Origin: Ktedonobacterales bacterium
Lineage (GTDB): Bacteria; Chloroflexota; Ktedonobacteria; Ktedonobacterales; DATBGS01
Length of the DNA stretch: 64,000 nt
Assembly (NCBI GenBank): GCA_036557285.1
Contig: DATBHW010000020.1
Location: 1-64,000 of the forward strand
Reading direction: 5' to 3'
Shown: piece after piece, positions 29,533 to 41,572 of the stretch
Layout: every line of letters starts with the position of its first letter
Position numbering within the stretch: position 1 is the first letter of the stretch
The notes under the pieces: model-generated
What the model was told of the DNA's origin: nothing
What the model saw: the letters and a program-made list of their open reading frames with translations, nothing else
Database searches by the model: none
Position numbers and translations under genes: made by a program

Positions 29533-30131
29533 TGATTGCAGCGGTGCATGGGGTTCTGGAGGGCAAGACACTGACCGGCGCGTTGGTGCGCGTGGGCGGC
29601 GTGACATTGCTGGTGCAAGCGCCCGTGACGACGCTTAGCCAGCTTGGCAGCGTGGGCGACGAGGTGACGCTGCACACCCACCTTTATGTGCGCGAAGAGG
29701 TTATCGCGCTCTATGGCTTTGCTGCGCTGGAAGACCTCCAGCTTTTTGAGACGCTGCTGAATGTCACGGGTGTTGGGCCGCGCATGGGGCTGGCGATCCT
29801 CTCATCAATGAGCGCCGAGGCGTTTCGCCAGGCGGTCATCAATGGCGATGAGCAGCGCCTGACCTTGATCCCCGGCGTGGGCAAGAAGCTGGCAGGGCGG
29901 CTGGTGTTGGAACTGCGTGAAAAGTTTGCTAAGGGCGCGCCCGTCCTGTCAGGCGCTGGAGCCGCCGCTGGCTATAATTCGGCGCGGGCAGAGGTGATCG
30001 AGGCACTGACGAACCTGGGCTACAGCATAGCTGCCGCGCAGACCGCCTATAATAAGCTGCCCCCTGAAAGCAGCAGCGCCAACCTGGAAGAGCAGATTAT
30101 GCAAGTGCTGCGCTATCTGGCGAAAGAGTAG
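29532..30131 (+). CDS. ruvA: Holliday junction branch migration protein RuvA
   Basis: A 199-residue DNA-binding subunit of the RuvAB branch-migration motor. Three domains are visible: the OB fold (1-62), the tandem helix-hairpin-helix region (FETLLNVTGVGPRMGLAILS and TLIPGVGKKLAGRLVLELR), and the C-terminal RuvB-binding domain (EVIEALTNLGYSIAAAQTAY, about 150-199). The start at 29532 gives the usual RuvA N-terminus MIAAVHG; an ATG four codons earlier carries the GGAG and is less likely. RuvB does not follow: the next gene is convergent and overlaps the ruvA end by 19 bases. Confidence 0.97.
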   Translation: MIAAVHGVLEGKTLTGALVRVGGVTLLVQAPVTTLSQLGSVGDEVTLHTHLYVREEVIALYGFAALEDLQLFETLLNVTGVGPRMGLAILSSMSAEAFRQAVINGDEQRLTLIPGVGKKLAGRLVLELREKFAKGAPVLSGAGAAAGYNSARAEVIEALTNLGYSIAAAQTAYNKLPPESSSANLEEQIMQVLRYLAKE

Positions 30132-30982
30132 CTCGCGCGGCCCCACCTGAGCAGCCCGATAACCAGGCTGCTGAGCAGCAGTGTTATCAAATAGACGACG
30201 ACCTGCGCCAGCGAGCCGCCAGGGACGTAGGGCAGGATGAAGAGGCTTGCCAGCAGGCTCGCGGCGGCAATTTGCTGCAAAGTCGCGCTAAGCTGCATGA
30301 GCGCCAGGTCTGCGCCGGTCAGGTCGGTATAGGGTCCGGCGATCAATTCGGGGCTGCTCTGAAAGATTCCCCACGCTGGCTGGGGGATGAGCGCGGGAAG
30401 GCAGAGCAGGAAGATCAGCCCGGCCAGAGCGTCCAGAATGATGTTGGCGGCGGACGGATGGCTCTGCGGAGTCGTCAAGAGGGCCAGACTGAGCGAGCCG
30501 CGCTGCGCTGCAATCGCCAACGCGCTGAGCAGGAGCAAAGCAGCCAACAACGCGGCGCGACGGACGGCGCGTTGGGCGGCGACGCGGCCATAGGGCGAGG
30601 CCAGCAGATTCCCCAGGAAAACTGGCGCGAGCGCGGGCAGCAGGAGCAGGAACAGCACAGCCAGCAGATCGCCGCTGGTCGTGGACGAATCGGCGGCCAG
30701 ATTTCCAGGCAGCGGCAGCAGAACCAGCGCCAGCAGCGGCGCGACAACGGCCAGCAGTGGAATCAGGCGCACGCCGGTTTCGGCTCCAATAGGCAGGCTG
30801 GTGGTCTTATTGAGCAGCTTGAAGAAATCCCTCGCTGGCTGCAACAGGCTTGTTCCGCGTATGCCGCGCCAGCGCGCGCTCAGGCTCCCGGCCAGCCAGA
30901 GCAATACCCAGCCCGCCAGCAGGGCAAACATTCCCCCTGGATAGAGCAGGATGGTGATCGCATAGCGCAGGATGATATTCAT
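30113..30982 (-). CDS. NuoH/HyfC/EchB-like membrane subunit
   Basis: A 289-residue protein with about eight membrane helices, related to complex I subunit NuoH and its group 4 hydrogenase counterparts. Recognisable features are the loop after the first helix, GIRGTSLLQPARDFFKLLNK (40-59; the QPxxDxxKL block), and SSPELIAGPYTDLTGADLAL (about 208-227), which matches the conserved E-x-x-x-GPxTDxxG stretch. This subunit normally joins the peripheral arm to the membrane arm. It is the last gene of the minus-strand cluster; its ATG overlaps the NuoB-like stop by four bases. Its 3' end overlaps ruvA. Confidence 0.85.
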   Translation of the reverse strand: MNIILRYAITILLYPGGMFALLAGWVLLWLAGSLSARWRGIRGTSLLQPARDFFKLLNKTTSLPIGAETGVRLIPLLAVVAPLLALVLLPLPGNLAADSSTTSGDLLAVLFLLLLPALAPVFLGNLLASPYGRVAAQRAVRRAALLAALLLLSALAIAAQRGSLSLALLTTPQSHPSAANIILDALAGLIFLLCLPALIPQPAWGIFQSSPELIAGPYTDLTGADLALMQLSATLQQIAAASLLASLFILPYVPGGSLAQVVVYLITLLLSSLVIGLLRWGRASYSFAR

Positions 30983-31503
30983 AGCTGATCCTCGGTCTGC
31001 CTTTCTTCATCCTCGCCGCCAGGCTGGCGCTCTTCTGCGTGGTCGCTTTCGGGCGCGGTTTCTTCTTCCTCTTCAGTCTCCTCTTCACCCTCTCCATCGA
31101 GCAGCTTGATCGCGGCCTCGATGCCTTCCAGAATCAGGGTTGGTGAGGGTGGGCAGCCAGGAAGTTCGACATCAATGGGCAGCGTTTCTCCGGCAGGCGT
31201 GAAGCCCTCTTGCCCACGAAAGACGCTGCCGTTGATCGGACAATCGCCAACCGCGACAATAGCACGCGGTTCGGGCAGTAATTCCCAGACACGGCGCGCG
31301 GCCTCTCTGCTGCGTGGGGTCATGATGCCGGTAAGCAGCAAAATATCGGCGTGGCGCGGGCTGCTGGCAAAGGCGATGCCGACCTCTTCCAGCGCGTAGC
31401 GCGCGGCGTGCAGCGCCTGTATCTCCTGCTCGCACCCGTTGCAGGAGCCGCTGTTCAATGGGAAGAGCCAGACGGAATGCTGGCTGGCCTGGCGTCCAAA
31501 CAC
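30979..31503 (-). CDS. NuoB/HyfI/EchC-like [4Fe-4S] small subunit
   Basis: A 174-residue subunit with all four ligands of the proximal (N2-type) 4Fe-4S cluster: C21 and C24 in GSCNGCEQEI, C88 in AVGDCPINGS, and C117 in LPGCPPSP. HADILLLTGIMT (51-62) is the usual core strand. The GSCNGCExE form is that of hydrogenase small subunits rather than complex I, where the pair is CC. From residue 136 the C-terminus is an acidic tail of about 40 residues (EEETEEEEE and later repeats), which is unusual. The start is a GTG at 31503 with only a weak ribosome binding site. Confidence 0.9.
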   Translation of the reverse strand: MFGRQASQHSVWLFPLNSGSCNGCEQEIQALHAARYALEEVGIAFASSPRHADILLLTGIMTPRSREAARRVWELLPEPRAIVAVGDCPINGSVFRGQEGFTPAGETLPIDVELPGCPPSPTLILEGIEAAIKLLDGEGEEETEEEEETAPESDHAEERQPGGEDEERQTEDQL

Positions 31504-31532
31504 GGGGGTACCTACTCCAGTCTCATCGGTGG

Positions 31533-33269
31533 TTAGCTCTGCGGCAAGCTCTCTGGTTCGCGCGCTTGCTCTGTCTGCGGAGGCGATGCGGATATTGTAT
31601 CACCTGCGTTGACCGCTTCGGCCTCGCCGCCCATAAAGACCGGGGCGCTCGCTGGCTGGCGCGCGTGGCGCGTGAGGAAGAAGCACAGCAGGAGCAGAAC
31701 CAGCGCCAGCAGCCAGAAAAGTCCTGGCAGCCAGGTTCCTGTCGCGCTGAGCAAGCCAATCTGATTGGTCAGGACACCGGCTCCGGGCGCCTGGCTGGCG
31801 ATGACTGGCAGCGCGTTGGCGGCAGGGCCGGTAAAGAAGTTCACGGCCACCTCTGGCGCGATACCTATCACCAGCGCCAGCAGGGCGAGTAGAAACGTCA
31901 GGAAGCTGGGCAGCGGCTCAGGTCGGCTGGAGAGTCCAGGCGCAGGCGCTCCGGCAGCGGGGGCTGGCTCCGCGCCGCCGACACGCACGATTGCCAGCGT
32001 GACCAGCAGCAGGGCCAGCCAGTTCACGCCGACCCCGGCGACCCAGGCCGGGCCAGCCGCTGCTGCGCCGCTGGTGATAAGCCAGGCGCTGCTGAATCCG
32101 GCGGCAAAGGGCAGCGCGCTCAGCGCCAGCGCCGCCAGCCACCAACTCATGCTTAAAATGGGCTGCGCTGGCTTGCGTCCTCCCGCCAGCAGCAGCGCGC
32201 CCAGCGCCAGAAAGCGCAGCAGCTTGAACAGCAGCGCGCCGTTCAGAGCCGCTGTACCTGTGATGGCGACGCCTGCCAGCATCCAACTGAGCAGCTGAAC
32301 GCTCAAAAAGAGTGGGAGCGTGACACGTTGGGCTGCGCGCATCGCCAGCAGCGCAGCCCCCAGCGCCAGTGCTGCACAGACCCAGATGACGACCAGGCTA
32401 TAAGCTTGCCAGCCGATAGAGCCATTGCCTGGCGTGACCTCGCCAGGACCGGCAATCAACAGCGCGAGCCGCGCAAAAGCAGTGAAGGTGACAGGCGACG
32501 CCATCAACACGAAGATGGCGATCTGGCTCATACCTGCCTGGCGCGGCGCGTTGGTCGGGATGACCTGCTGGCTGAGCAAAGCCACGCCCGGCGCGAGCAG
32601 CGCGGCGAGCATGAGAAGCGCTGCCCAGAATGGTTCGCGCCCCAGGCCATTGAGCAAATCCAGCCGCTTATCATCGAGTGTGCTGATGGCCGGAAGCAGG
32701 GAGAGATAGAGGATGAGGGCCGAGATACAGGGTATAGCCAGCAGCATGCTCGCGCGCTTGCGGCTCTGGCCCTGGATGTAGAGCGTGAACGCGCACAGAC
32801 TCGTCATTCCCCAGCCGACCACCATCCAGAGCGCGCTGTTGGCGAAAATGGCCGTAAAGACAGCGCCCAGCGCGATCAGCAATACGCCCAACTGCCAGGC
32901 GCCGTTTCCCTGCTCACCCGGCCCTTGCTGTGGGGCCTGCTCAGGTTCGAGGGCGATCAGCACAGCGGCTGCCGCGCTCGCCAGCACGCCGACGATCATC
33001 GCGCCAAAGATATTGAAGCTGTCAACCTGATAACTTAGCTGGAGCCAGCGCGCCCAGCCAGCAGGAGCAAATGCGGTAGCCTGGATGGTATCACCGTAGG
33101 CCAGCAGCCGGATAAAAAATAAGACAACGAGCAGGCTGAAGAGCAGCACGATGCCGCACCAGATGGCCGCGACGAGCCGCGACAGCACTCTGGCAGCCAG
33201 TATCAAGATCGCGCCGGATACCACCGGAACGAGACCAAGCAAACCCAGTAACAACGCGAGTGAGATCAT
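31533..33269 (-). CDS. Divergent antiporter-like subunit (NuoL/M/N, HyfB/F type)
   Basis: A 578-residue membrane protein with about 14 helices and the general course of Mrp/NuoL-M-N antiporter subunits: YQVDSFNIFGAMIVGVLASA corresponds to the conserved third and fourth helices. The conserved GWE(L/M) of helix 5 is here GWGM (G152-W153-G154), so the charged Glu needed for proton pumping is missing. The expected Lys and Pro-rich motif of helix 7 (KSAQxPxHxWLPxA) is replaced by SQQVIPTNAPRQAG. The C-terminus is a low-complexity tail with several Glu and Pro. It is in line with the NuoB-like gene (29-base gap). Pumping ability is doubtful. Confidence 0.75.
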   Translation of the reverse strand: MISLALLLGLLGLVPVVSGAILILAARVLSRLVAAIWCGIVLLFSLLVVLFFIRLLAYGDTIQATAFAPAGWARWLQLSYQVDSFNIFGAMIVGVLASAAAAVLIALEPEQAPQQGPGEQGNGAWQLGVLLIALGAVFTAIFANSALWMVVGWGMTSLCAFTLYIQGQSRKRASMLLAIPCISALILYLSLLPAISTLDDKRLDLLNGLGREPFWAALLMLAALLAPGVALLSQQVIPTNAPRQAGMSQIAIFVLMASPVTFTAFARLALLIAGPGEVTPGNGSIGWQAYSLVVIWVCAALALGAALLAMRAAQRVTLPLFLSVQLLSWMLAGVAITGTAALNGALLFKLLRFLALGALLLAGGRKPAQPILSMSWWLAALALSALPFAAGFSSAWLITSGAAAAGPAWVAGVGVNWLALLLVTLAIVRVGGAEPAPAAGAPAPGLSSRPEPLPSFLTFLLALLALVIGIAPEVAVNFFTGPAANALPVIASQAPGAGVLTNQIGLLSATGTWLPGLFWLLALVLLLLCFFLTRHARQPASAPVFMGGEAEAVNAGDTISASPPQTEQAREPESLPQS

Positions 33270-33373
33270 TGTCTACCCATGCCTATGATGCTTGTAACGC
33301 CTCTTCAACGGCTGCTCTGAATGCCTTTGGCAGCATAATACCACGCGATAGCTCACTGGAGTCAGGGATTTCT

Positions 33374-34327
33374 TCAGAGAACCAGCGTGGTGCCGACGCT
33401 GCTGGCAATGAACGCTTCTGGCATGGTGCGCGCAATCTGGTGAACGGCCTTCCAGCCGGTGCAGTGGCAGGGCATCAGATAGCGTGGCCTGAACTGCTCT
33501 AACGCGGCAATGGTGGCCGGAATGATCGGCTCAAAGATCGCGCCGGTCAGGTGGAAACCGCCAACCACTGCATAGATGGTCTGAATGCCGGTGAGGCGCT
33601 GCGCGTTACGGATGATGTTTACAATCCCCGCATGACCGCATCCGGTCACGATGACCAGCCCTTTGCCACGCACGTGGATGATGGCGCACTGGTCGTCGTG
33701 GATCAGCGGATCAGGCTCCCAGGCATCATGACGTTTGGCGTAGTGGATGGGAAATCCTTGTTCAAAATCGGTAGTGCGGGCCACTTCCCCAGAGACCAGC
33801 AGCATGCCCTCCACCAGCAGCGAGGGGCCAACCTCTTCGATGACTTCGATGTTTTCGCGCTGCAAATCACTCTTGCGCGGCGGGGGAAGGTTGATTTCCA
33901 TCCCGGTTGGCAGGACGATTTTCCGCTCCAGGTAGGCGTCGGGGTGCAGAACCAGCGGCAGCTTGCGCGTGCCCAGCCGAGTGAGCAGGCCGAGCAGCCC
34001 CATCGTATGATCGGCGTGACCGTGACTGACAATGATCGCCCGCGTCTCGCCGGGACGAATCTCCAGGGCGTCCATATTATGCAGGATGCCTTGAGGGCTG
34101 ATGCCGGTATCAAACAGAATCGTTCCGGTCTTCTCGCCGCGTTTCAGATGAATCAGGGCGGAAAACCCATGCTCGGCCTGTGGCTGAGCGCGCTCAAAGA
34201 GGTCTGCGCGCAGGGGATAGCGCCGGGCAACGTCGCTTCCGGCCATCAGGAGATCGAGGCTGTTATCCACAATGATGGTGATCTGCGCTTCATCAACTTC
34301 CAGCAGAGGGATGGGTGCCTGTGACAC
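33374..34327 (-). CDS. Metallo-beta-lactamase-fold hydrolase inside the hydrogenase-like cluster
   Basis: A 317-residue MBL-fold protein of the type often annotated as dihydropteridine/aminobenzene-phosphate synthase-like. Metal ligands are visible: SHGHADHTMGLLG (about 101-113) is the HxHxDH motif, GCGHAGIVNIIRNA (about 224-237) supplies another His, and GGFHLTG (near 253) the last. Group relatives act on phosphate esters or bind metal cofactors; the substrate here is unknown. The start is a GTG at 34327 with AAGGAG 6 bases before it. It lies between the antiporter-like gene (104-base gap) and the large-subunit gene (49-base gap), all on the minus strand. Confidence 0.88.
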   Translation of the reverse strand: MSQAPIPLLEVDEAQITIIVDNSLDLLMAGSDVARRYPLRADLFERAQPQAEHGFSALIHLKRGEKTGTILFDTGISPQGILHNMDALEIRPGETRAIIVSHGHADHTMGLLGLLTRLGTRKLPLVLHPDAYLERKIVLPTGMEINLPPPRKSDLQRENIEVIEEVGPSLLVEGMLLVSGEVARTTDFEQGFPIHYAKRHDAWEPDPLIHDDQCAIIHVRGKGLVIVTGCGHAGIVNIIRNAQRLTGIQTIYAVVGGFHLTGAIFEPIIPATIAALEQFRPRYLMPCHCTGWKAVHQIARTMPEAFIASSVGTTLVL

Positions 34328-34376
34328 TGGATGCTCCTTTCCAGGTGGTGGTAGTGAGCAACTACAAGATCAGTCG

Positions 34377-35468
34377 TTATTTATCCACACAAGCTACGCA
34401 TATATCCAGGCTTGCCAGGATGAGCAGCGCGTCGCTGAGTTTGTTCCCCTCCAGCGCCAGGGGAACCGCTGCCAGGTTGCGCTGGCTGGCGGTGGTGATG
34501 GTCACGCTGGCCGGGCGGGCGGATCCATCGCCGCGCGCCTGCCAGGTTTCGCGGCCCTGCGGCCCTTCGAGAGAAGCTTCGGCCTCGCCAGATGGAAGGA
34601 GATCAGGGAAGGGCTGCGCCAGCGGCCCATCGGGAAGCTGCTCAATCAACTGCGTGGCGAGTTCGATGCCCTCGCGCATCTCGCCTAGCCGCGCGGCTAT
34701 TCTGGCGTGTGTGTCTCCTGCGACGCTGCTCGCGCGTTCGGTCAGGTTCAGGTCGGCGTAGGCGTCGTAGAGGTATTCGCGCCGCGCATCGTCGTTCAAG
34801 CCAGAAGCCCTTGCCACTGGCCCCGTTAGTTTCAGTTGACGCGCCTGATCGGTAGTGATCGTTGCCAGCGCACGTGTGCGCCGCTGCATCTCTCGGTTGT
34901 GGACAAGCTGCTGCTCTAGCTGGTCAAGCGCCGCGCTCATCTGCTGAAGCGCCTGCTCCACCGGCGCGCAATCCGGCGCGGAAGCGATGCCGCCAGGGAC
35001 GGGCAAGCCCCACAGCAGACGATGGCCTGTCGCTTGCTCCATCTTCTCCAGCAGGTGTTCGTGCGCTTCGATAGCGACGTAGAAGGCGCGCGGGCGCTCG
35101 GCGGCACGCGCGAGTTGGGCGGCCCAGGCGAGGTGCGAAAGGAGCCGCTCCACTTCGCAAAAGAGGCTGCGCAGAGCGCGGGCGCGTGGCGGCGGCTTGA
35201 CCTCGGCCAGCCCCTCCAACACCAGGCAGAGCGCCAGGCGGTGATGATGCGCCGCGCTGCCGCACAGCCGCTCAGCCAGCTTCAGTCCCTCTTCGATGCC
35301 GCGCTGAGCGAGCAGCGTTTCTACGCCACGATGCGTGTAGCCAGTGGTGATCTCGACGCTGGCAATCGTTTCGCCTTCAAGGTGTAATTGGTACCAGACC
35401 GGCTCTGGCAGCGCCGGATGATAGGGGCCAAGTGGCAGCACTGATACCACGCTTAGCGGCTCCTTCAC
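34377..35468 (-). CDS. NuoD/EchE-like large subunit with altered [NiFe] site
   Basis: A 363-residue protein like the large subunit of group 4 [NiFe] hydrogenases. The N-terminal block GPYHPALPEPVWYQLHLEGE (14-33) is the hydrogenase form (HPALPEP), not the HPxxHG form of complex I. The N-terminal nickel motif, usually RxCGxC, is RLCGSA (C69 kept, second Cys replaced by A72). The C-terminal motif, usually DPCxxC, is DICVAC (C357, C360 kept, Pro lost), six residues from the normal end. One of four nickel ligands is thus missing. The start is GTG at 35468, 5 bases after the LCP stop. No NuoC-like or ferredoxin-like subunit is adjacent. Confidence 0.85.
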   Translation of the reverse strand: MKEPLSVVSVLPLGPYHPALPEPVWYQLHLEGETIASVEITTGYTHRGVETLLAQRGIEEGLKLAERLCGSAAHHHRLALCLVLEGLAEVKPPPRARALRSLFCEVERLLSHLAWAAQLARAAERPRAFYVAIEAHEHLLEKMEQATGHRLLWGLPVPGGIASAPDCAPVEQALQQMSAALDQLEQQLVHNREMQRRTRALATITTDQARQLKLTGPVARASGLNDDARREYLYDAYADLNLTERASSVAGDTHARIAARLGEMREGIELATQLIEQLPDGPLAQPFPDLLPSGEAEASLEGPQGRETWQARGDGSARPASVTITTASQRNLAAVPLALEGNKLSDALLILASLDICVACVDK

Positions 35469-35473
35469 GGTTG

Positions 35474-36595
35474 TTATTTTTTACCTAGCTGCTGCTGGAT
35501 GTATTGCTTCACTAAATCCCAGTTGCCATTGCGGGGCTGCAAGATATACTGGCCGTCATCTGTCGAACTATCCACCAGCACGTTTTGATTGGAAAGGCCA
35601 ATATGCTTGGCATTGTTCAGGTCCATCTTACCCACGAAATGATAGAGGTCGAGCGCAGACAGATTGGTGTAAATGCTCTTTTGCAGGGCATCCATCGCGC
35701 CAAAGAGATGAGGCCACTCGGAAACCTGTGTCATCTTCGAGACAATGGCTTTGATGAGAATCTGCTGGCGCGCCGAGCGAGCAAAATCGGTACCCTCGGT
35801 GGGATCGCCACCCGTCACCTCCCGCGCCCGCGCGTACTCAATGGCATGCGCGCCATCCATATGCTGCGGTCCGGCCTTGAACGTCACGGTGATCCAGGAA
35901 GCATCAATGCTAGGGTCATCGTTCTTGGGATAGAGCGCCGTAAAGCTGTGCTGCACGTTTACATCAACGCCGCCCAGCGCGTCAACCAGTTCGCGGAAGC
36001 CGCTGAAGTCGAGCGTCATCCAATATTTGACTGATAACCCCGTAACATCGCTGAGCTTTTGCGCAGTAATATCACCAGCGGCGACTTTGCCCGCCTGCAC
36101 TGTGCCATACCCATTATCCAGCCCATACTCATAGGCTGAGTTGAGTTTGCCATAGCGCCCTGAATCCGGCGGAATCTGTACCCAGAGGTCACGGGGTACC
36201 GAGATGAGTGCCGTCTGGCCGGTCTGAGGCTGAATGCTGATGATGAGCATGGAATCGGTCAGATACGCGCCGGGGTGGTTGCCACCGCCAAAGCCCATAA
36301 CTAGCAGATTGACGCGATTCGTGCCGTTAAGGTCAATCTGGCTGCTGAGCGGCGATTGGGTGGAGATAGCCTGGCCGAAGGCGTAGGCGCGCTGCCCGAC
36401 GATCACGCCCAGCGCCACCACAATGATCAGCAGGACGAGGAAAGTCAGGGCTACCCAACGGCCCCAGCGACGACGCTTGCGAGACTTGGGCCAGGGAGCC
36501 GGTGGTTGATAGTATTCTTGCAACCCATCTGGGCGCACCGGCTGCATCGGGTCGTACCCGAAGGTTTGTGTTGGATAATAGCCACCGCGCGGCAT
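35474..36595 (-). CDS. LytR-CpsA-Psr (LCP) family protein
   Basis: A 373-residue type II membrane protein. After a Pro/Tyr-rich cytoplasmic stretch (1-40) and a basic patch (KSRKRRRWGR) comes one membrane segment (about 46-72), then the LCP domain (about 95-340) with VPRDLWVQIP, the Arg of LNSAYEYG-type loops, and IEYARAREVTGGDPTEGTDFARSARQQ. LCP enzymes transfer undecaprenyl-phosphate-linked glycopolymers to peptidoglycan outside the cell. It lies beside a polysaccharide locus, which supports that role. Its stop is only 5 bases from the start of the NuoD-like gene downstream, so read-through into that cluster is likely. Confidence 0.93.
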   Translation of the reverse strand: MPRGGYYPTQTFGYDPMQPVRPDGLQEYYQPPAPWPKSRKRRRWGRWVALTFLVLLIIVVALGVIVGQRAYAFGQAISTQSPLSSQIDLNGTNRVNLLVMGFGGGNHPGAYLTDSMLIISIQPQTGQTALISVPRDLWVQIPPDSGRYGKLNSAYEYGLDNGYGTVQAGKVAAGDITAQKLSDVTGLSVKYWMTLDFSGFRELVDALGGVDVNVQHSFTALYPKNDDPSIDASWITVTFKAGPQHMDGAHAIEYARAREVTGGDPTEGTDFARSARQQILIKAIVSKMTQVSEWPHLFGAMDALQKSIYTNLSALDLYHFVGKMDLNNAKHIGLSNQNVLVDSSTDDGQYILQPRNGNWDLVKQYIQQQLGKK

Positions 36596-36732: not shown

Positions 36733-38322
36733 TCACATCACATCGTCGCGTGTAGCCAAAAGTGATGCTTCAAGAGGCGTCTCTGGGACTGCGCCTTTCT
36801 TCTGCTGGGAATGTATAATCTGGTTTTCACGCTGAGCAATAGCCTGGATTACAAGCAGCGTGCCCATGAAGAACCAGAACATCAGCGCCAGATCCGGCAC
36901 AAAATACGAGTTATCAACCAACCCATGTACCAGAGATGTCACAATGGCCCCCGCTATACCGAGCAGCAGGCGCTGGAGAATCCTTCCCTGGCGCAGAGGG
37001 GGTGCGCACAGGCGATAGGTGCGCGCCAGGATGGTTGCAGAGGCAGCGAGCAGCCAGAACCACGCAACTACTCCCAGCAAGCCGCTGCTGATCCAAAAAT
37101 CAAGGAAGAAGTTGTGCGGGTGCGAGAGGTGAGGATTATAGGCGGCAGGGAAGGATTGCCCATCCAGCGCCTGGAGTGCGTAAGAATTGGGCGCTGTTGG
37201 AATATACAGAGTATTGAAACTGTCAGGGCCAGTACCCAGCAAGAGATGATCACGAATGATCAAGAGCGCCGCTTTCCACAAGAGGAATCGCTCGGAGAGC
37301 AGCCCATGCCCTGCCTCGTTGAACAACTGGAGGATGCGCGACCAGAAGAGTGCCACACACAGCACACCAGCGCCTGCCACAGCCAGGATCGCGCCCCAGT
37401 GGCGGACCTCGAAGATAAAGTACAGGAAGAGTACCCCCAGCAGCGCCACCTCTGCCCCGCGCGAACCGGTCCAATAGAGCGCCCACACCAGCGGTATCAT
37501 TGCTCCCAGGCAAATCCACCGCAGTGGGTCACGCCAGGCAGGCGGCTCTTGCGAAGCATCGGCGGCTGGACGACGCACACCCAGAAACGTCAGCGCCAGC
37601 AGGATGGGCAGCGCCCGGTCCAGCAGAAACGCCAGATTGTTCGGGCTACCATAGGGCCCATTGACCCGGAAGGTAGTAGCATCCACAATCAGCAAATCAC
37701 TGGTGATATGCAATAGACCTTGAATGATGCCCATACCGGCGGCAATTGTGGTGGAGAGAATAAAAGCTCCCATCGTGCGCGCCAGATCATCGCGGGTTCG
37801 CAAATAGCGCAAGATGAGCAGAAAATACAGGATTGGCTCAAGAATCTCTTCCCGATACGCGCGCAGACTCTCATGCCGATCAGGGGAAACGAGGACAGCC
37901 AGCGCGGCGCCAATCAGGAACAACAGGGCTGGTAATAACAACAGGCGTGCGCGCCTCCACAAACCGTGTAACCATTCCCAGGTGGCACGCCGCTCCTGCG
38001 CCAGAAGGATATTCCGTAAACAGGCCACTCCCAGACAGATAAGCACGCCAAGCTCATTCAGAGAGAATGCGAGAGAGCCGCTGGAGTTGAGAGGGAGAAG
38101 ATCAAGGTAATAGGGGAATGTGAGTGGCAGCAGGGCAATGGCAATCTCAAGGCGCATCCAGGCCAGTCCAGCCGCGATGCCCAGCAGGATCAGTGAAGCA
38201 GGCGGGTGATGCCAGAAGAAAAAGAGCACGAATGAAAGACACAGCCCAGGCCCAACAAAACGAAAAGGAAGCCTTGAGCGTCCACCTGACTGAATAAAGC
38301 GCCGAACCATTATACGTACCAC
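36733..38322 (-). CDS. O-antigen ligase / polymerase-like membrane protein
   Basis: A 529-residue membrane protein with about 12 helices. It has a large outer loop near residues 350-410 (LSERFLLWKAALLIIRDHLL, then GTGPDSFNTLYIP), followed by YNPHLSHPHNFFLDFWISSG, the H-x-H-N-xx-L motif of the Wzy_C / O-antigen ligase family. Such proteins join or polymerise undecaprenyl-linked sugars at the outer face of the membrane. The start may be the GTG at 38322 or the ATG at 38310; neither has ideal ribosome-binding spacing. It is in line with the GT4 gene (52-base gap). Confidence 0.9.
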   Translation of the reverse strand: MVRIMVRRFIQSGGRSRLPFRFVGPGLCLSFVLFFFWHHPPASLILLGIAAGLAWMRLEIAIALLPLTFPYYLDLLPLNSSGSLAFSLNELGVLICLGVACLRNILLAQERRATWEWLHGLWRRARLLLLPALLFLIGAALAVLVSPDRHESLRAYREEILEPILYFLLILRYLRTRDDLARTMGAFILSTTIAAGMGIIQGLLHITSDLLIVDATTFRVNGPYGSPNNLAFLLDRALPILLALTFLGVRRPAADASQEPPAWRDPLRWICLGAMIPLVWALYWTGSRGAEVALLGVLFLYFIFEVRHWGAILAVAGAGVLCVALFWSRILQLFNEAGHGLLSERFLLWKAALLIIRDHLLLGTGPDSFNTLYIPTAPNSYALQALDGQSFPAAYNPHLSHPHNFFLDFWISSGLLGVVAWFWLLAASATILARTYRLCAPPLRQGRILQRLLLGIAGAIVTSLVHGLVDNSYFVPDLALMFWFFMGTLLVIQAIAQRENQIIHSQQKKGAVPETPLEASLLATRDDVM

Positions 38323-38374
38323 AAGCCTTCTCTATGTTTGCAAAATCTATGCGGAAAGAGGCGCAGTGTTCATG

Positions 38375-39532
38375 CTAGACGTTAGATGGAGAGATAGAAA
38401 GTAATGCAGCAGGCTGCCATGTCTCGTACAGGGTCATATAGCGTTGAACTAGTGTTTCCACTGAATAGTCCTGGGCGCGCTGCAAGCAAGCTTGACGCAT
38501 CTGGACCAACTCAGCATCCGACATCATCATGACATGATGAAGGATGTCGGCCAGAGATGACACATCATTCGTCGGTGCGACCCAACCGGTGACACCGTCT
38601 TCAATGACCCCGGCAGCATTCGCCGCCTGAGAGATGATCACCGGGCGTCCCGCAGCCAGAGATTCTATGCTGACATTGGGCAACCCCTCGGCTGGAGAAT
38701 ACAAGATCGTTGCATCGCAGGCATGATAATAATCTTCAGGATAAGGGGTTTCTGGATGCTGGATGACCACCTCGCCTAATTCATCTTGCAGGATTACCGC
38801 ATCAAGAGCCTTCTGGGCGGCGGCTCCTTGAACTGGCCCCACGATAAAACAGCGCACATCAGAAGGCAAGCGGCTCTGTCGCTTCAATATCCCAAACGCC
38901 TGGGCGATCCAGTGCATATTCTTTTCGGAAGAGATACGGCCCATGCTCACAAAGACACGGCGAGAACCGGGAGCGACATGGCAGCGGAACATCTCATCAT
39001 GCGGCTGAATATATCGCTCCAAGGTTATTCCATTGGGGATAGAGAGGATTTTGGGTGCTGCCACCCCGGCAGAGGATACCAGCATGGTTTTTAAGTGCGG
39101 CGCATTTACCACAATGTGCGCGCAGACTCTCTGGCCGAGCCGTTCATATAAGCGTTGTTTCGCTGTGAGGACGCCGCGCACTGTGCCAATGAGCTTTACA
39201 GGGGGCAGGAATGGGAAAGCCAGCCTCATGAGCAGGTTGGCATGGTAGCCTTCGGCCTGAATAATCTGTGGCCGCACCGCCCGCGCTACTCGGATGATAG
39301 AGGCTATTCCCCTGGCTTTATCCCAGGCGCTCCAGCCCAGATCGGGGGTATAGAGACTGATGCCAGCAGCACGAATCTGAGAGGCAAAGTGCAGATTTCG
39401 AGCTTTTGGCCCATACAGGCAGAGAACATGTGGATCAAAGCGGCTGCGATCCAACCTGGTTACTAGCTCCACCAGTTGAGACTCGATTCCTCCTGCCATG
39501 AGGGAATCGGCCACATAGAGAACACGTATCAT
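38375..39532 (-). CDS. GT4-family glycosyltransferase
   Basis: A 385-residue retaining GT-B enzyme. The acceptor domain starts MIRVLYVADSLMAGGIESQL, with the Gly-rich loop usual for GT4. The donor domain has VFVSMGRISSEKNMHWIAQAF and, near 285, the E-x7-E motif EGLPNVSIES. It should transfer a sugar from a nucleotide donor to a lipid-linked glycan in the cytoplasm. The ATG at 39532 has GGAG 8 bases upstream; the track of the frame begins two codons earlier at a TTG. Part of the minus-strand polysaccharide operon. Confidence 0.94.
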   Translation of the reverse strand: MIRVLYVADSLMAGGIESQLVELVTRLDRSRFDPHVLCLYGPKARNLHFASQIRAAGISLYTPDLGWSAWDKARGIASIIRVARAVRPQIIQAEGYHANLLMRLAFPFLPPVKLIGTVRGVLTAKQRLYERLGQRVCAHIVVNAPHLKTMLVSSAGVAAPKILSIPNGITLERYIQPHDEMFRCHVAPGSRRVFVSMGRISSEKNMHWIAQAFGILKRQSRLPSDVRCFIVGPVQGAAAQKALDAVILQDELGEVVIQHPETPYPEDYYHACDATILYSPAEGLPNVSIESLAAGRPVIISQAANAAGVIEDGVTGWVAPTNDVSSLADILHHVMMMSDAELVQMRQACLQRAQDYSVETLVQRYMTLYETWQPAALLSISPSNV

Positions 39533-39655
39533 TAACAAAAGTCTCCAGGACGCTCAACGCGCTCTCTCTGCTCTTCGCCTGACCTGCCCCGTTATCAACA
39601 AACAACCGATGGGTGAAAACGAGAAGAAAGGAGATGATAGCCGCGTCCCAAACAT

Positions 39656-41572
39656 CTACCAGCCTATTTCATAGACCAGATTTGTTCCGTACTTATCTAT
39701 CAAATGGAAATGCTCTGGATCTGCACCCGCCCATTGCGCGTAATCACTGCCCTTGGTAGTATCCAGGTACTGTATGTGCTGAGATTGTAGGGTCTTCATG
39801 AAATCGGCAGAGTTTTGGGGTTGTATCATGAATACCTGGTTGTTAAGCTGAGAACCGAAAAGCGGGTATACACACCACACGACGTCATTGTAACCTGTGA
39901 GAGCAATGCGTGACCCTGGCGGTACATGGTCCACCCAGCGAAATTGAGGATACCACAGATTCCCAATAGTTCGCTGCTCAGGTTGCATTCCCAGGGCATG
40001 AAGGGCGAGCTGAGGAGAGAAGTAAAGTTGGGCTGAACTAAAATAAAGAGAGATAAGCACTAATATCAGACCAACCACCTGAAGGAGTCCTCTCAACCAC
40101 CATCTGTTTAACTTATCTATCACGTATGGCAAGGCAATCGCTCCTGGCGCCACGATGAAGATCGTGTACCGGCTCCACCAGTTAGCAGGTTGGACAAAGA
40201 AGATCACTATGAATGGTAGGAGAAAGGTAAAAAAAAGACCTCTTTGCCTGTATAAGCTATAGGCAATAAAAACCACCAGAGCAGGCATGGCGAGATATGT
40301 CCACTGAGGTCCGAATCCCCCCAAACGCTGATCATAGACATAGTATCCGTTTAAGCCAGAGCCACAATTTCCCAGTTGATTATAAATGCAGAGAGAGTAC
40401 GTGGGTTTTGGGGGTTCGCTCCACCAGGAAAGGAGGATCTGTTGCCACCAAGAGTGCCCTACTAATTCCTGGGGAACGTTAGCCCCCAGAACCAGGCTCT
40501 GAAATGTCCCTACGCCAGGAAGAGTGTAGCCCAGAAGACGTACAGTAATAGGGTAGAAAGGATTACCATAAGCAACCCATGTGCGCAGATACCAATAGGA
40601 ACCTAAAAGTAAGAGCGGTGCTCCCAGAACAAGCAATAACCTGGTCGTCTGCTTGAAATTAAGCTGGCGCCGATAGAGAGAGACAACTAGCAGCACCAGT
40701 AGGCTGATTCCAACATAAGCCAATCCAGATGACTTTATCCCTAGAGTGATCCCACCAGCTAACCCTGCCAGGAGTAGGTCAGCCTTGCTTTGATGCTCTA
40801 TGTAGCGGAACAGGAAATAGAAACACACTAAGAACATGGAAGCGAAGGCAACATCAACATAATTCGAGATAGCTTGTAGAAGGACGATGGGGGTCAAGAA
40901 GAAAAGACACCCTGCGGCTAGGGCAGATGTACACTTGAGGCCACTGGACCTTCCCAACCCGACAACAGCCAACATTCCTCCTATTGCGAAAATCAGTTGT
41001 CCCATGCGTACGAGGACATCAGTATGTAGAAAGAGTATCAACCACGCAAAGAATAACTCTGCGTTTGCTGGGTATCCGTTGGACCAGATAGAATAAGGAA
41101 TGATCCCTATTTTCTGCGCCTGTATCCAGGCAACGGCGGATGGTAAATGATATGTCAAGGCATCGTAATCATGGGAAGGGAGTAAATAGGCCAGAAAAGC
41201 CACCCATATTATTTCGCCTAACGTTAAAAGTAATAAGGCGCATGCCCAAGGATCATGCAGTAATTCCTTGAACAGGTTTGAGATCATACCCTGAAGGGCA
41301 AGCCATGGCTTCGGAATATTCTTTCCCCTATATCGGAGGGTCAATACTACTAATAGCGTAGTAATGATCAGGTTGATGAAGAAAACAACAACTGAATTAA
41401 AGGCTTCCAACACTACACCAGCAAAGAGCAAAGAGACCATGATTTGGGACATTGAGAAAGTAAAAATAGCTAAAAGGATAGGTATTGATCCCGTTAACCT
41501 GAGACAATGGGTTGCGGCTATAGCACCTATGAGTACGACTAAATTTACTACAATAAATATCAGCACAGACAT
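39656..41572 (-). CDS. GT-C-type membrane glycosyltransferase (ArnT/PMT-like)
   Basis: A 638-residue protein with about 13 membrane helices. The first outer loop carries LLPSHDYDALTYHLPSAVAW (about 129-148), with the acidic DxD-like centre and the YH that mark polyprenyl-phosphate-sugar-dependent GT-C enzymes. A large C-terminal outer domain follows the last helix (about 530-638). It would move a sugar from a lipid carrier to an acceptor outside the membrane. The gap to the upstream flippase-like gene is only 14 bases. DNA here is noticeably richer in A+T than the metabolic genes to the left. Confidence 0.85.
   Translation of the reverse strand: MSVLIFIVVNLVVLIGAIAATHCLRLTGSIPILLAIFTFSMSQIMVSLLFAGVVLEAFNSVVVFFINLIITTLLVVLTLRYRGKNIPKPWLALQGMISNLFKELLHDPWACALLLLTLGEIIWVAFLAYLLPSHDYDALTYHLPSAVAWIQAQKIGIIPYSIWSNGYPANAELFFAWLILFLHTDVLVRMGQLIFAIGGMLAVVGLGRSSGLKCTSALAAGCLFFLTPIVLLQAISNYVDVAFASMFLVCFYFLFRYIEHQSKADLLLAGLAGGITLGIKSSGLAYVGISLLVLLVVSLYRRQLNFKQTTRLLLVLGAPLLLLGSYWYLRTWVAYGNPFYPITVRLLGYTLPGVGTFQSLVLGANVPQELVGHSWWQQILLSWWSEPPKPTYSLCIYNQLGNCGSGLNGYYVYDQRLGGFGPQWTYLAMPALVVFIAYSLYRQRGLFFTFLLPFIVIFFVQPANWWSRYTIFIVAPGAIALPYVIDKLNRWWLRGLLQVVGLILVLISLYFSSAQLYFSPQLALHALGMQPEQRTIGNLWYPQFRWVDHVPPGSRIALTGYNDVVWCVYPLFGSQLNNQVFMIQPQNSADFMKTLQSQHIQYLDTTKGSDYAQWAGADPEHFHLIDKYGTNLVYEIGW

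Follow-up and report, generated by a model that had tools for sequence, protein, structure and literature searches.

Four minus-strand genes at positions 30113-35450 of the window (the whole stretch of 64,000 nucleotides of Ktedonobacterales DNA analyzed here) encode NuoD-like, antiporter-like, NuoB-like, and NuoH-like proteins, as identified from open reading frames and profile matches. With slightly better than even confidence, we lean to the view that their products may constitute a conserved, non-catalytic, repurposed membrane complex that would serve as a scaffold or take part in regulation or sensing. Complex I and the group 4 hydrogenases are redox-driven ion pumps composed of shared modules. 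A group 4 hydrogenase or Ehr-type ancestor would have been reduced to the large subunit (D), one antiporter-like subunit, the NuoB-like subunit (B), and the NuoH-like subunit (H). The fold would have been kept, and probably also the assembly, with loss of the chemistry. The reduced complex would lack a complete NiFe site, the quinone ligands of complex I, the distal iron-sulphur subunits, and a canonical proton wire.

Read from 35450 down to 30113, the minus-strand frames are the NuoD-like gene (34377-35450; PF00346, 144 bits, together with cysteine motifs, a start with a ribosome site, and a structure model), a metallo-beta-lactamase (MBL)-fold hydrolase gene (33374-34327; PF00753, 40 bits), the antiporter-like gene of the NuoL/M/N type (31533-33269; assigned by profile matches of its relatives and a residue alignment), the NuoB/hydrogenase-small-subunit-like gene (30979-31503; PF01058, 91 bits, and an alignment), and the NuoH-like gene (30113-30982; PF00146, 82 bits, and an alignment). 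Upstream lie an LCP (LytR-CpsA-Psr) gene on the same strand (35474-36595; PF03816, 120 bits) and then a Wzy-like gene. Pfam and NCBIfam name every frame of this block except the antiporter. The NuoB and NuoH genes overlap by 4 nt, as they do in most relatives, and the NuoH gene overlaps the 3' end of ruvA by 19 nt. The sequence-only reading had proposed a minimal group-4-type module of these four subunits with no NuoC, NuoI, or NuoK gene nearby. The Pfam and profile matches agree with the first part of this proposal, and NuoC-, NuoI-, and NuoK-like frames were detected in none of the module loci, which agrees with the second. It had also placed the LCP stop 5 bp before the large-subunit gene, a distance that needs correction. 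The NuoD frame opens at 35468, and translation probably starts at the GTG at 35450, which is preceded at 9 nt by the Shine-Dalgarno-like AAGGAG (35465-35460, minus strand; read directly from the sequence). With this probable start, the gap widens from 5 to 23 nt.

Searches of the phylum and the order, in which most of the surveyed genomes are metagenome-assembled (MAGs), found the module-type D subunit in 13 of 47 Ktedonobacterales genomes. By family, it is present in the only sampled member of f1 (the window genome), in 5/6 genomes of f2, in 7/11 of f4, and in 0/29 of f3. The order D, antiporter, B, H recurs in all other module genomes with a long enough contig, and the antiporter/B/H junctions are often 4-nt overlaps. 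No flanking gene family is widely common to the module loci. The junction between the D and antiporter genes is short except in the window, where it holds the MBL gene, and in G164, where it holds an IS605 TnpB gene (IS605 OrfB; L050:8186-9067, on the opposite strand). In phylogenetic trees, the 13 D subunits form one clade (support 97/99 and 100/99), which lies outside complex I NuoD and outside the Hyf/Ehr-like D subunits from loci with full gene sets. Of the conserved order of six genes that had been put up for checking, the four-gene order thus stands, and the MBL and LCP genes drop out of it.

The metal motif of the MBL protein is intact (HGHADH, of the form HxHxDH), and the protein resembles solved members of the 2p4z/3h3e type (closest 2p4z_A, 3e-21). 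Among the module loci compared, it sits between D and the antiporter in the window genome only. Of 301 Chloroflexota genomes sampled, 43 carry a member of the family, and most of these have no module. The family is absent from 11 of the 12 other module genomes; the remaining one, G196, has it on another contig. The closest copies, at 70% identity, belong to G108 and G172 of the module-free family f3. In four other genomes, the MBL neighbors are unrelated to complex I. A link of this enzyme to the module was rejected on its distribution and on these differing neighbors. Similarly, no LCP gene was found beside the other module copies. In the window, the LCP gene adjoins a Wzy/O-antigen-ligase-like gene (36733-38322), and the same-strand region upstream of the module (36733-41572), with Wzy-like, glycosyltransferase-like, and membrane-protein genes, has the look of an exopolysaccharide cluster into which LCP fits. 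The proposed ties of the module to an MBL enzyme and, through LCP, to cell-wall glycopolymer transfer were therefore not borne out, and we judge both genes to be bystanders and no parts of the complex. A working minimal group 4 or Ehr converter, with the MBL enzyme as a functional part and a connection to LCP glycopolymer transfer, has in its favor the adjacency of the genes on one strand in this one genome. It is nevertheless very improbable, as the MBL and LCP genes are not conserved beside the module, which refutes the association as a general rule, and as the proton-path and nickel residues described below are lost.

In the large subunit of the window (numbering of the 363-residue frame), Cys69, Cys357, and Cys360 are kept, and the second cysteine of the L1 motif is replaced by Ala72. 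The protein does not have the four L1/L2 CxxC cysteines of group 4 [NiFe] hydrogenases, and it has no C-terminal peptide to cleave; the earlier suggestion of an Ehr-like module without a complete nickel site was correct in this respect. Across the module clade, the first L1 and first L2 cysteines are invariant and the L2 cysteines are well kept. The second L1 cysteine is lost in most members, and all four nickel-site cysteines are found only in G009, G132, and G076. A structural metal other than NiFe may be bound at the Cys3/Cys4 site. NuoD of complex I carries a quinone-binding His and Tyr. In the window these positions are Pro and Gly, respectively, and both ligands are also absent from the module relatives where the region is covered. 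The fold appears to be intact: the structure model of the window protein has a pLDDT of 85 and a TM score of 0.86 to the complex I 49 kDa subunit and to HycE of FHL. Among solved structures, the D profile matches MBH alpha best (6cfw_L, 213 bits), ahead of complex I and FHL.

HypD is required for the NiFe cofactor. It is absent from 11 of the 13 module genomes, including G009 and G132, whose D subunits keep four cysteines. The window genome has HypD plus an NiFe hydrogenase of its own, encoded apart from the module on contig C13. A functional hydrogenase was discounted on the nickel ligands and the absence of HypD from most module genomes. The Ktedonobacteria families JADMIN01 and JACDGC01 have been described as free of group 1h hydrogenase (PMC13374853). 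Since locus L093 of record JACDGC010000631 belongs to the module family f2, the module may be most frequent in lineages that lack true hydrogenases.

The window antiporter alone gave no Pfam match. A profile made from its relatives, with the window protein left out, scored it at 58 bits, and a shuffled copy gave no match. Of four relatives tested, three matched PF00361. Profile comparison paired the family with E. coli NuoL/M/N and HyfB/D/F (99% probability), and the best PDB match of the clade profile is the MBX subunit 6u8y_X of P. furiosus (5e-21). The Glu in TM5, the Lys in TM7, the TM8 position, and the Lys/Glu in TM12 correspond to ion-pair and proton-wire residues (PMC11496545). None of the 12 module antiporters has the TM5 Glu, the TM7 Lys, or the TM12 Lys/Glu, as aligned across the low identities within the clade (20-27%), which make this a distant residue mapping. 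TM7 always shows Ala and TM8 always Pro, so that the conserved Lys/His are gone, and the TM12 position is Arg in three proteins and neutral in the others. The three residues are present in 6/6 E. coli antiporters and in 20/20 antiporters sampled from other complexes of Chloroflexota and Eremiobacterota, chosen outside the second degraded cluster discussed below; the TM8 residue varies among these comparison proteins. The AlphaFold model of the antiporter was poor, with a pLDDT of 52, too low to use.

The NuoH-like subunit points in the same direction. Of the Glu path (E. coli numbering), the window protein has other residues at E36, E157, E216, and E218 and retains E220, so that most of the path is gone. 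The protein has 289 residues, compared to 319-337 in its relatives, and is missing the last helix. A frameshift as the cause of the short NuoH was rejected, as no remnant of the lost tail was found in any frame downstream. The label hydrogenase/complex-I-like thus applies to the module as a statement of ancestry; as a description of a working energy converter it fails, given the loss of the proton-path residues in the antiporter and NuoH. We infer that the four proteins assemble into one complex, which, judged by its residues, would probably be inactive.

Some chemistry may remain in the NuoB-like subunit. The window protein keeps all four cysteines of the proximal cluster (CxxC ... GDC ... 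PGC). Four are also found in the f4 members, three in G009, G132, and G041, and none in G076, the one MAG from which a cysteine-free module NuoB is known. With four cysteines in NuoB and three in D, some redox use by the window module is possible. The module might thus be a redox-active oxidoreductase in which a soluble ferredoxin-like donor, or partners encoded elsewhere, feed the NuoB [4Fe-4S] cluster, with an unknown acceptor and with no or non-canonical ion transport. Besides the NuoB cysteines in the window and in f4, the strictly conserved first L1 and first L2 cysteines of D suggest a metal site. Furthermore, NuoC genes occur elsewhere in 13/13 module genomes, within complex I-type clusters that could share parts with the module. 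The window genome encodes a full complex I elsewhere (L092); at C7:139909-140646 (L055), it has another NuoD-type gene accompanied by NuoA, C, and H, besides the complete complex I on C44. The redox-active reading is rather unlikely: NuoB has no cluster cysteines in G076 and in the second cluster of G288, no NuoB was found in the f24 clusters, the NuoD quinone ligands are gone, and no module copy has a NuoC or NuoI gene beside it. In the particular case of the window genome, the main rival to a non-catalytic complex is a redox relay that runs through the NuoB cluster.

Loss of active-site residues could also mark a decaying relic without a present role, in which residues disappeared at random and the genes persist by inertia. 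The losses differ by lineage, both in which cysteines and in which subunits are affected, the NuoH of the window is cut short, and insertions entered the junction between the D and antiporter genes (MBL in the window, TnpB in G164). However, the genes are under purifying selection. For the close pair G009/G132, the one pair on which these values rest, dN/dS is, depending on the method, about 0.13-0.15 for D, 0.16-0.25 for the antiporter, about 0.12-0.14 for B, and 0.16-0.24 for H, and the differences are concentrated at third codon positions; both observations argue against pseudogenes. In addition, the frames are intact in 13 genomes of three families, their codon-position composition is usual, and the four-gene order is stable. 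A relic is accordingly improbable. A non-catalytic complex, our preferred reading, would combine the residue losses with continued selection, and its replacement role would presumably be structural or regulatory.

Compared to known systems, the module shares homologous B, D, H, and antiporter subunits with MBH and the group 4 hydrogenases (P. furiosus 6cfw, E. coli FHL 7z0s), and its B subunit has the hydrogenase-type CxxC. It differs from them in that the nickel ligands are incomplete in most members, HypD is absent in 11/13 genomes, and the antiporter Glu/Lys as well as ferredoxin-like (NuoI/HyfH) subunits and a NuoC-like domain are missing, the latter two from all module loci. Six other Chloroflexota loci (L041-L046) contain K-, L/M-, N-, B-, D-, H-, and I-like genes, with a C-like gene in most; their D subunits have intact CxxC motifs, and most have a C-terminal extension. 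With complex I, the module shares homologous subunits and the fold of D, whereas its D lies outside the NuoD clade, the quinone His/Tyr are gone, and most of the 14 subunit types are missing; in place of the 14-subunit core set in one cluster, there are four genes only. Ehr complexes are described as related to group 4 but without conserved NiFe ligands, and they are expected to link redox reactions in the cytoplasm with charge translocation (PMC6349859). Like the Ehr complexes, among them MBX (6u8y), which provides the best antiporter match, the module is derived from group 4 and has no full set of NiFe ligands. Unlike them, its redox chain is truncated and its translocation residues are gone, with the TM5, TM7, and TM12 Glu/Lys found in none of the 12 antiporters. 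The module is, by its residue pattern, a variant apparently derived from the Ehr kind. It is not filed as an energy-converting Ehr complex because the NiFe ligands are lost as in that class but the translocation residues, by sequence, fail. The available portions of the literature describe Ehr complexes but contain no description of the four-gene set or of the second cluster, and those of the C. aurantiacus genome paper list only complex I clusters.

A second degraded cluster, related to the module, is widespread in other families of the Chloroflexota. Genes in the order D, antiporter1, HyfE/NuoK-like, antiporter2 occur in families f24, f53, f15, and f57, and f80 adds a B gene. Such loci include L051:4581-9789, L139:3711-8918, and L140:6980-12149 (f24), and also L147-L153; NuoB is absent or weak in them, and their antiporters are without the TM5 Glu. 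Antiporter1 has neither the TM5 Glu nor the TM7 Lys in f24, f53, f15, and f57, and in antiporter2 Arg replaces the TM7 Lys. No NuoB or NuoH was detected in the f24 clusters, and a NuoH-profile search of the second cluster gave nothing significant. Three NuoH-looking frames were not accepted as NuoH, having no NuoH Pfam match. Seven f24 genomes are without HypD. At L150:8274-9389, a D-like protein has none of the four nickel-site cysteines, its PF00346 match being otherwise intact. At L048:4190-4678 (G288), a NuoB-like protein has no cluster cysteines, and its D partner keeps the four nickel-site cysteines. The second cluster resembles the module in that D comes first, NuoC and NuoI are missing, and the Cys motifs and antiporter residues are degraded. 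It differs in having two antiporters and a small membrane subunit, in the frequent absence of NuoB, in the lack of a recognizable NuoH, and in its separate D clade (96/91). In an unrooted tree, the D subunits of the module and the second cluster together are split from those of functional-looking complexes, with a branch support of 98/95.

A tentative extension, which we hold somewhat less probable than not, is that old assemblies of the complex I superfamily across the Chloroflexota lost redox chemistry and pumping and were recruited to another selected function. The Ktedonobacterales module would then be a reduced form in which each of the four core subunit types persists. D, B, H, and an antiporter kept under purifying selection without nickel, quinone, or proton-path residues would amount to a pump without chemistry. 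The module could help to reveal which elements of the architecture are useful in themselves, and it cautions against labeling genes of this sort hydrogenase or NADH dehydrogenase.
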